A program made the translations under genes and the position numbers. Below are positions 794-44,407 of a stretch of 64,000 bases of DNA, one piece after another. Positions within the stretch are counted from its first letter, which is position 1, and every line of letters begins with the position of its first letter. A model generated the notes under the pieces. That model ran no database searches and had not been told where the DNA came from. It saw nothing but the letters and a program-made list of their open reading frames with translations. The DNA is from Candidatus Gastranaerophilales bacterium (GTDB taxonomy: Bacteria; Cyanobacteriota; Vampirovibrionia; Gastranaerophilales; Gastranaerophilaceae), in contig CALUTG010000004.1 in the NCBI GenBank assembly GCA_944323615.1, positions 1 to 64,000 on the forward strand, read 5' to 3'.

Positions 794-1185
794 CACAGCC
801 ACAATTTTTTAACAAAAAATTCGGAGAAGGCGGGATTGTCTTGGTCGCTCGCGTTAGACGAGTCTGCGGTTTTTGCTTCAAAGAATTGCATTCTTTTCGC
901 AAAAAACCTTCGCTCTCTGCTCGCTTCCGCTCAAACCCGGAAATGCTTCGCATTGGGGTTCGAATCCCACAGCCACAATTTTTTAACAAAAAATTCGGAG
1001 AAGGCGGGATTGTCTTGGTCGCTCGCGTTAGACGAGTCTGCGGTTTTTGCTTCAAAGAATTGCATTCTTTTCGCAAAAAACCTTCGCTCTCTGCTCGCTT
1101 CCGCTCAAACCCGGAAATGCTTCGCATTGGGGTTCGAATCCCACAGCCACAATTTTTTAACAAAAAATTCGGAGAAGGCGGGATT
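794..1185 (-). repeat. Tandem 174-bp T-loop element downstream of tRNA-Ser
   Basis: Two perfect 174-bp units (794-967, 968-1141) run into a partial third that merges with the 3' end of tRNA-Ser. Each unit, in tRNA sense, holds an A/T hairpin, a T-arm 5' half (CCGGGTTTGA), a 94-nt core (1105-1012 and 931-838) and a copy of the last 15 nt of the tRNA (997-1011 and 823-837). The core folds as GGTTTTTTGC pairing with GCAAAAACC around an inner AAGAAT/ATTCTT stem, and ends CGCGAGCGACCAAGAC. Open frames across this region on both strands are repeat artefacts. The stretch from 562 to 1170 holds no gene. Confidence 0.93.
1151..1169 (-). terminator. A/T-rich hairpin after tRNA-Ser
   Basis: AATTTTTT and AAAAAATT form a perfect hairpin beginning two bases after the tRNA-Ser 3' end. 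It would serve as a weak terminator or processing site and is copied with each 174-bp repeat unit. Confidence 0.5.
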
Positions 1186-1256
1186 CGAACCCGCGGAGGG
1201 CTTTCACCCTCACAAATTTTCGAGATTTGCACCTTAAACCGCTCGGACACTTCTCC
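1171..1256 (-). tRNA. tRNA-Ser(CGA)
   Basis: An 86-nt class II tRNA. The acceptor GGAGAAG pairs with CTTCTCC; the anticodon stem CAAAT/ATTTG carries loop CTCGAAA, giving anticodon CGA; the long variable arm is GAGGG/CCCTC-like as expected for serine; the T-arm is GCGGGTTCGAATCCCGC. CCA is not encoded. The copy is intact although its last 15 nt recur twice downstream in tandem repeats. Confidence 0.95.
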
Positions 1257-31744: not shown

Positions 31745-31884
31745 GAGTGTGAAAGGGTAATCAGAATTCAATTCTTTGGTATTAAAAGGATTGATAAATG
31801 AATTGCTCTAATTGTGTATTTCTCCCCCTGAAATGAAAATTAAATAACGATTCACGACTTTCGGGTCACGAATCACAAAAGTAA

Positions 31885-31956
31885 GCGGATGTAATTCAGT
31901 GGTAGAATGCAACCTTCCCAAGGTTGACGTCGCGAGTTCGAGTCTCGTCGTCCGCT
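31885..31956 (+). tRNA. tRNA-Gly(CCC)
   Basis: A 72-nt tRNA: acceptor GCGGATG with CGTCCGC (one T-G wobble), D-arm with GGTAGA, anticodon stem CAACC/GGTTG with loop TTCCCAA giving CCC, T-arm GCGAGTTCGAGTCTCGT. CCA is not encoded. It is followed immediately by two T-loop elements carrying degenerate copies of its 3' end. Confidence 0.95.
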
Positions 31957-32316
31957 AATACAAAACACTCATCGCTAGATGAGTGTTTTGTATTAGCGTG
32001 ATGATAGTGACACGACTAGCTTTAAGCGAGTTGCGAGAGCGAGCTGAGGCTGGAGCATTTTGCGATGTGTTGAAAACACAGAAGCAAAATGCGGAATTGC
32101 CGTTAAACGCGAGCGAACAAGACGCGAGTCTCGTTGTCACTCATCACTAGATGAGTGTTTTGTATTAGCGTGATGATAGTGACACGACTAGCTTTAAGCG
32201 AGTTGCGTGAGCGAGCTGAGGCTGGAGTAGTTTTGCGATGTGTTGAAAACACAGAAGCAAAATGCGGAATTGCTATTAAACGCGAGCGAACAAGACACGA
32301 ATCTCGTTGTCCGTTG
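31957..32316 (+). repeat. Tandem 172-bp T-loop element downstream of tRNA-Gly
   Basis: Two units of about 172 bp follow the tRNA. Each has a long hairpin (ACTCATC/GATGAGT with flanking AATACAAAAC/GTTTTGTATT in the first), the sequence GTGACACGACTAGC, a T-arm 5' half GCGAGTT, a core (32036-32123; 32208-32296) and a degraded copy of the tRNA T-arm 3' half (AGTCTCGTTGTC at 32127-32138; AATCTCGTTGTCCG at 32300-32313). The core stem-loop is GCATTTTGC/GCAAAATGC around TGTGTT/AACACA and the core ends CGCGAGCGAACAAGAC. No coding gene; the 60-codon frames here are artefacts. Confidence 0.92.
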
Positions 32317-43741: not shown

Positions 43742-44015
43742 GTCTTGGTCGCTCGCGTTTAACGGCAATTACGCGATTTGCAGCGGAGATTGCCTCCTTG
43801 CAAATCGCTCCAGCCTCAGCTCGCTCCCGCTCGAACCCGTTGACGAGGCTTCGCCTTGTCGGCAGGTTTTTTGCTTCTACAGCTACATGCTAGTCGTTTT
43901 ATCTATAAGGGTGACAAGAAGTTATTATATTAGATTATAGAGTATATCTTATGTCACCCGTCAAAATAATCTTTTCTTTTTGATTACTTTTTCTTTTTAG
44001 TAAAGAAAAAGTAAT
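43742..44015 (-). repeat. T-loop element downstream of tmRNA
   Basis: In tmRNA sense: an A/T hairpin, a GGGTGACA/TGTCACCC hairpin region, ACGACTAGC, a T-arm 5' half (CGGGTTCG), the 90-nt core (43831-43742) and then the 16-nt copy of the tmRNA 3' end. The core begins AGCGGGAGCGAGCTGAGG, has stem GCGATTTGC/GCAAATCGC around GGAG/CTCC, and ends CGCGAGCGACCAAGAC. It shares ACGACTAGC with the tRNA-Gly elements. The 69- and 70-codon frames here are repeat artefacts. Confidence 0.9.
43983..44015 (-). terminator. A/T hairpin after tmRNA
   Basis: ATTACTTTTTCTT pairs with AAGAAAAAGTAAT (with an A-rich loop) right after the tmRNA 3' end. It lacks a U tract, so processing or partial termination is as likely as full termination. 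Confidence 0.45.
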
Positions 44016-44407
44016 TGGAGATGGCGGGAGTCGAACCCGCGTCCATCGTGGATAAAAACGAACTTCTACGAGTGTAGTAACTTATTATCTCGTCCTGATA
44101 CGGAAAGTTACCTAACCTGAATCAGGACAAAGCTTTTTTGCAGAAAGCTAACTTCCAATGGCAAATCTTGATACGCATACCATCATTTGCGCACTGCAGC
44201 TTGCATAATCCTCATTCGGCCAAGCGGCAAGCTGGCCTGACCGAAGGGCTGAACTGCTATAATTAAGCAGCGAGTCTTTGTGCTCTGTAATCAGCTAATG
44301 AAACAACTTTGTTGTCATTTCTTTTGTTTGCTCGTTGATAAACGGGAACAGCGCCCGTACTCGCAATCCGGATCTACCAATCACGGCGTCAAAACCATTA
44401 CATCCCC
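44016..44407 (-). ncRNA. ssrA: Transfer-messenger RNA
   Basis: A 392-nt one-piece tmRNA. The 5' end GGGGATGTAATGGTTTTGACG pairs with 3' CATCTCC to form the acceptor; the T-arm is GCGGGTTCGACTCCCGC. The tag frame after AACGA starts GCA AAC AAA AGA and reads ANKRNDNKVVS... ending AQRLAA before TAA, 22 codons. The ALA-type end is the usual ClpXP/ClpAP degron (LAA). It rescues stalled ribosomes. The tag is longer than the 8-15 residues common in most bacteria. No CCA beyond the discriminator A. Confidence 0.95.

Follow-up and report, generated by a model that had tools for sequence, protein, structure and literature searches.

Islands that target tRNA genes are usually recognised by their integrase. 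Palindromic insertions of ~100 bp or smaller, some of them within genes, are known as Rickettsia palindromic elements and as the small dispersed repeats of cyanobacteria, and neither is known to rebuild the 3′ ends of tRNAs. In the Islander survey (PMC4383910), islands in tRNA and tmRNA genes are defined by the restored gene together with its displaced fragment, and candidates without an integrase or shorter than 2 kb are discarded. The ssrA islands of Dehalococcoides (PMC3146451) have their insertion point midway along the T-loop of tmRNA, accrete in tandem and are marked by short direct copies of the ssrA 3′ end, with a conserved 15-bp motif beside the repeat. REPINs and REP elements (PMC3116915), for their part, are hairpin elements for which mobilisation in trans by RAYT has been proposed.

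We analysed a stretch of 64,000 nucleotides (hereafter the window; contig CALUTG010000004.1, positions 1 to 64,000) from the 96% complete genome of a Candidatus Gastranaerophilales bacterium (G000), in which the DNA following a tRNA-Ser(CGA) gene probably belongs to a family of gene-free, non-autonomous mobile elements behaving like miniature tRNA-targeting islands. TRF reports a single array on the window, at 794-1185, with a period of 174, 2.3 copies and 100% matches. This bears out the two perfect 174-bp units that an earlier note on this DNA had seen at 838-1185, and adds a third, partial copy by which the array reaches 794. The core was rightly placed between the halves of a T-arm, its length being 93 nt by the limits of the covariance model and not 94, and the description of the unit holds as far as it went; overlooked were the inverted T-arm, the hairpin, the terminator-like spacer, and a 44-bp repeat, made up of the tRNA-Ser 3′ end and the spacer behind it, of which there are three copies around the two inserts, the third flanking the second core (Table 1). 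Read on the minus strand, each unit consists of AATCCCGCCTTCTCC - spacer - GGGATTCGAACCCC - AATGCGAAGCATT - GGGTTTGA - core - AATCCCGCCTTCTCC, where the copy of the tRNA end, AATCCCGCCTTCTCC, is exact over 15-16 nt, and the copy of the T-arm 5′ half, GGGTTTGA, has one mismatch to GGGTTCGA in the tRNA gene itself.

Table 1. Features of the tRNA- and tmRNA-linked units in the window
Feature	Position	Strand	Basis
tRNA-Ser(CGA), intact target gene	1170..1256	-	ARAGORN; Rfam RF00005, 51.3 bits
Unit 1, 174 bp: tRNA 3′ end, spacer, inverted T-arm, hairpin, T-arm 5′ half, core	1012..1185	-	sequence; TRF 100%
Unit 1 core, 93 nt	1012..1104	-	R1 covariance model, 86.1 bits, E 3.5e-20
Second T-arm 5′ half, GGGTTTGA	1105..1112	-	sequence
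Hairpin AATGCGAAGCATT, GNA-type loop	1116..1128	-	sequence; GNA loops common in such hairpins
Inverted T-arm, GGGATTCGAACCCC	1129..1142	-	T-arm reverse complement; counterparts in most tRNA-linked units
Exact second 3′ half, AATCCCGCCTTCTCC	997..1011	-	identical to 1171-1185
Unit 2, 174 bp, identical to unit 1	838..1011	-	TRF 100%
Unit 2 core, 93 nt	838..930	-	R1, 86.1 bits
Third partial copy, 44 bp: tRNA 3′ end and spacer, stops where the inverted T-arm would begin	794..837	-	
tRNA-Gly(CCC), target of two further units	31884..31957	+	ARAGORN
Core 1 behind tRNA-Gly, split T-arm GCGAGTT / CGAGTCTCG	32033..32123	+	R1, 98.6 bits
Core 2 behind tRNA-Gly	32205..32296	+	R1, 97.6 bits
tmRNA, target	44013..44407	-	Rfam RF00023, 105.1 bits
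Core behind tmRNA	43742..43830	-	R1, 83.3 bits

Open reading frames in the units of the window are overlapping ones only, make no sense as known domains and include no integrase. The two units being 100% identical, they are most simply read as one unit that was recently duplicated in tandem; accretion by two insertions, as proposed in the earlier note, is a less simple history, yet arrays of unlike units do occur at single tRNAs elsewhere, and in one relative (G003) three units of two core types are stacked behind one tRNA. Two perfect copies could also be an artefact of assembly, as all genomes used here are draft assemblies, most of them from metagenomes, and their contigs are often broken at these repeats. 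The earlier note had named such an artefact as fatal to its reading. Against it argue the unlike units just mentioned and the equal-scoring pairs of units, with a spacing of ~184-187 bp, that recur in independent assemblies (e.g., G153, G233 and G241), which leaves an artefact highly improbable. Just past the array, at 30-561, lies a ParDE-type toxin-antitoxin pair (Pfam ParE_toxin and ParD_antitoxin). A dispersed repeat, TCATTGCGAGGA...GAAGCAATC, has one copy at 722-757 of the window, and at another locus (L130) a core lies inside such a repeat.

Sixteen cores were used to build the R1 covariance model, which detects 23 core copies in G000. In the window, the core linked to tmRNA is preceded by GGGTTCGA (43838-43831) and followed by a copy of the tmRNA end, ACTCCCGCCATCTCCA (43741-43726), and no such unit is present at tRNA-Leu(CAA) (52887). 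The model also finds cores in 31 of the 37 genomes in a set of relatives, and in 117 of 292 genomes sampled across the phylum, of which 116 belong to the family of the window and one elsewhere in the order; among the matches listed for this phylum sample none lies outside the order. Those core-bearing assemblies that are named are mostly ‘Candidatus Gastranaerophilales’ or ‘Melainabacteria’, and the number of copies per genome varies strongly among related genomes, from 0 to 30. Throughout, the units are protein-less and ~170-300 bp in size, with a core of 80-100 nt.

What links these copies is their junction with tRNA genes. In a census that took in same-strand tRNA and tmRNA genes only, within 500 nt upstream of the core, 98 of 154 distinct cores lie downstream of such a gene, and 78 of these 98 are directly followed by an exact copy (at least 9 nt, mostly 16-19 nt, beginning in the T-loop) of that gene's 3′ end, as against a 9-nt match in 2 of 98 with the flank reversed, which places the link far outside chance. 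The left junction is usually TTCGA, GTTCA, TTTGA, GTTCG or GAGTT (i.e., the matching T-arm 5′ half), and the targets comprise more than 20 kinds of tRNA plus tmRNA. The same junction is present at many of the other cores, which either lie at the edge of a contig or are parted from the tRNA by a larger element. Most tRNA-linked units also contain a counterpart of the inverted T-arm, so that the T-arm pieces follow one another in the order direct-inverted-direct, and a terminator-like hairpin often stands between tRNA and core. The suggestion of a miniature, gene-free, non-autonomous element in copied T-loops thus extends to many other tRNAs and to tmRNA, and the absence of this layout from any other RNA gene, which would have spoken against it, was not what we found. 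As the tRNA gene is left intact and a displaced copy of its 3′ end stands at the end of the unit, the unit acts like a tRNA-integrating island cut down to ~170-300 bp.

In G003, both 3′ copies agree with the host tRNA in their acceptor-stem part, so that the exact crossover point could lie in either the T-loop or the acceptor stem. Decay did not differ significantly between distal and proximal 3′ copies (p = 0.30), and an encoded CCA was dropped as a marker of polarity because its signal was mixed. At one locus of another genome (L121, 1858-2074, in G005), the T-loop of tRNA-Val(TAC) is itself interrupted by an inverted T-arm and a core, and no intact tRNA-Val(TAC) was found in this 98% complete genome. 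Such a direct interruption, like the position of the core in a copy of the T-loop, is what an intron-like insertion removed from tRNA transcripts would look like; nevertheless, removal of the core restores a full tRNA at none of the loci and the upstream tRNA is complete in nearly all cases, so that an intron is hardly conceivable.

Differences between relatives suggest that these sequences move. At tRNA-Ser(CGA) the site is filled in G000, G009 and G011 and core-less in seven other genomes (G062, G044, G051, G002, G012, G046 and G007), which supplies the empty sites that the earlier note had asked for. The gene rplV has a core near its 3′ end in G000 only, being free of it in 22 relatives; no target duplication is visible at this insertion, whose flanks meet directly, and no T-arm pieces accompany it, so that the core can move without them. 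Behind tRNA-Leu(GAG), G000 and G003 share an identical unit of 183 bp, in spite of a tRNA that is 88% and flanks that are 58-63% alike (their glyS DNA is 74% alike). The cores at tRNA-Asp are 97-99% identical across families, while the 45 nt on their left are 69-81% alike between families; cores at different tRNAs are much less alike, with a median identity of 75%. In two genomes (G005 and G018), cores stand head to tail (AAGAC|GCG) after terminator-like hairpins and without T-arm pieces, and at L124 (1726-2002, in G018) cores are inserted into 5S rRNA-like DNA. A target in the T-loop alone, as had been assumed, is not supported, as the core occurs also in rplV, in 5S rRNA-like DNA, after terminators, and joined to itself.

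These last cases raise the question of whether the tRNA-linked layout is secondary. The core could be a small palindromic insertion element (of the MITE or RPE type), around which duplicated and inverted T-arm pieces arose later, either by tandem duplication or when replication switched template at a hairpin, and were kept since the tRNA must stay intact. The lone core in rplV, the head-to-tail cores after terminators and the direct-inverted-direct order of the T-arm all lean this way, as do the direct repeats that extend at least 20 nt past the tRNA end, terminator included, in 20 of the 78 units; the latter are such as local tandem duplication would give, and fit either an island or a core that moves by itself. 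It is harder to see how this would produce one identical and precise layout at more than 20 kinds of tRNA and at tmRNA in many species, or how a whole unit would come to be shared between species as an identical 183-bp block, and we regard such a secondary origin as rather unlikely. The reading of the units as miniature tRNA-targeting islands accommodates the layout and the shared block alike.

The core itself is highly structured. It follows the scheme GCG - helix - GAGC/GCGA tandem G.A motif - inner stems - CAAGAC, with GCG-X-GAG-Y-GAGC pairing to GCGA-Y′-CGA-X′-CAAGAC, where X-X′ and Y-Y′ vary as Watson-Crick pairs and the G-A/A-G steps between the helices are either kept as tandem G.A pairs or swapped for ordinary ones. 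In an alignment from a separate collection (A4), which was fitted to the model and is hence somewhat favourable to it, two-sided changes are seen in 25 of the 29 modelled pairs and the covariation score is 0.337, compared to 0.090 when shuffled and at most 0.056 for slid versions; in another alignment (A2) the score is 0.425, compared to 0.153. The sense strand is the one that folds better in 148 of 149 cases with RNA parameters and in 142 of 149 with DNA parameters. No Rfam covariance model lies over a core at the gathering score in the window, and none does so convincingly in seven further loci.

Whether this fold acts as DNA or as RNA is a matter on which its details point both ways. GNA loops are unusually stable in DNA. 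By alignment columns, 39 of 62 rows have a GNA triloop at the apex, and GNA loops are frequent in the left hairpins of the units as well; this is a weak hint at single-stranded DNA. RNA could be indicated just as well by a G.U pair that is almost invariant (76 of 77). That pair and the strong covariation would also suit a host element for regulation or processing in the 3′ trailer of the tRNA, conserved for its structure, and so would the strand shared with the tRNA in the 78 copy-bearing cases (only same-strand tRNAs being considered). Such a role agrees poorly with the terminator-like hairpin that often separates tRNA and core, with patchy presence at the same tRNA, with the copies in rplV, in 5S-like DNA and in arrays, and with copy numbers of 0-30 among related genomes, all of which make it quite improbable.

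If the units are indeed miniature islands, their mobile part would be the 80-100-nt core, and a unit at a tRNA or tmRNA gene would consist of the tRNA 3′ end, a terminator or spacer, the inverted T-arm with its hairpin, the T-arm 5′ half and the core, further units being stacked in tandem. Being without a gene, the unit must have its enzyme act in trans. Such an enzyme would be a recombinase that recognises both the folded core and DNA resembling a T-arm, and that links the element to T-loops in tRNA genes. Its substrate could be a hairpin of single-stranded DNA, an idea weakly favoured by the recurrence of GNA loops and of tandem G.A pairs. In its fullest form, the proposal is that the element uses its own folded single strand as substrate, is specialised on tRNA T-loops, rebuilds the 3′ end and terminator of each host tRNA, and spreads between species by means of a recombinase from the cell or its resident phages, a combination that is, on balance, doubtful.

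Neither the mobilising enzyme, nor an excision product, nor an autonomous relative was found in the draft genomes examined, and no larger element with the same ends turned up. A tyrosine recombinase, to which the earlier note had looked, is possible, even though no autonomous partner with these ends came to light. In G000, an element of ~35 kb with a tyrosine integrase sits at tRNA-Leu(TAA) (contig C3, 14930-50128; L435 and L436), and was rejected as the partner, its end being without this core. Just past the end of that element is a 216-bp tandem unit with yet another type of core. Neither the integrase nor a serine resolvase that lies behind tRNA-Leu(TAG) could be tied to an element ending in this core. 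Two further candidates for a larger form, a prophage-like contig at a tmRNA end (L280) and an integrated element at tRNA-Asp (L115), were dismissed, as each lies directly upstream of an existing miniature unit.

Other repeats share these surroundings. A second type of core, of ~118 nt (GCGGATTT...AAATCCAAGAC), occupies the T-loop position at tRNA-Tyr, tRNA-Arg(TCT) and tRNA-Leu(GAG) (L049 and L147, C8; L156, C15) and alternates with the first type in head-to-tail arrays (L107 and L108). Mirror-image units are seen on the 5′ side of tRNA-Ala (L051, ~1435-1750), tRNA-Leu(GAG) (L049 and L119) and tRNA-Asn (L125), in the order partial copies of the tRNA 5′ end, a different hairpin (e.g., ACTCTGCCGAG...CGAGAGG) in the D-arm, inverted D-arm, spacer and intact tRNA. 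Another repeat, TGTACTTTTTTGTCC...GTACGGATA, breaks up cores or takes the place of distal units at several tRNA-Ser and other genes (L210, L222, L313 and L328).

A number of known classes can be set aside. The core lacks terminal inverted repeats (its ends being GCG... and ...CAAGAC) and left no visible duplication on inserting in rplV, which is not expected of a MITE; no Y1 transposase (RAYT or TnpA; PF01797) is matched in G000 despite its 23 cores, as would be needed for a REPIN or an element derived from IS200-IS605, and no reverse transcriptase (PF00078) is found there for a group II-like retro-element. An integron attC cassette is contradicted by junctions of AAGAC|GCG or TTCGA|GCG without GTTRRRY core sites, and a tRNA intron by the failure of core removal to give a complete tRNA. 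A literature search, missing most subscription journals, returned no published description of this family.

Should gene-free units of less than 300 bp be able to use the tRNA sites of such islands, surveys would have been screening out a class of mobile DNA. The more than 150 distinct junctions are also a natural set for asking how a mobile element can target essential tRNA genes and yet keep them whole, and the core is a structured element, covarying and with tandem G.A pairs, for which Rfam has no entry.

Among described systems, tRNA and tmRNA islands come near in having a whole target gene, a displaced 3′ fragment at the far end and tandem arrays, and an intact tRNA with a displaced direct 3′ fragment is what 78 of the 98 tRNA-linked cores have. 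The known islands encode an integrase, whereas the present units, which are gene-free, combine a conserved hairpin core with an inverted T-arm, and at ~170-300 bp have neither an integrase nor a length above 2 kb, which is why a survey like Islander would not contain them. With the Dehalococcoides ssrA islands they share the point of insertion in the T-loop, direct repeats of the 3′ end, tandem accretion and the likeness of a conserved 15-bp motif by the repeat, but those islands bear genes, use a serine recombinase and occur only at ssrA, instead of at many tRNAs without genes. Rickettsia palindromic elements and cyanobacterial repeats, compared by description only, are alike in size, palindromy and insertion within genes. 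REPINs are also miniature, gene-free hairpins with compensatory changes and a proposed mobilisation in trans, but their REP doublets are tied to RAYT, in contrast to a genome in which no Y1 transposase was detected and an element found mainly at tRNA genes. The family is a proven member of none of these classes; it works like the tRNA/tmRNA and ssrA islands, and looks like the REPINs.
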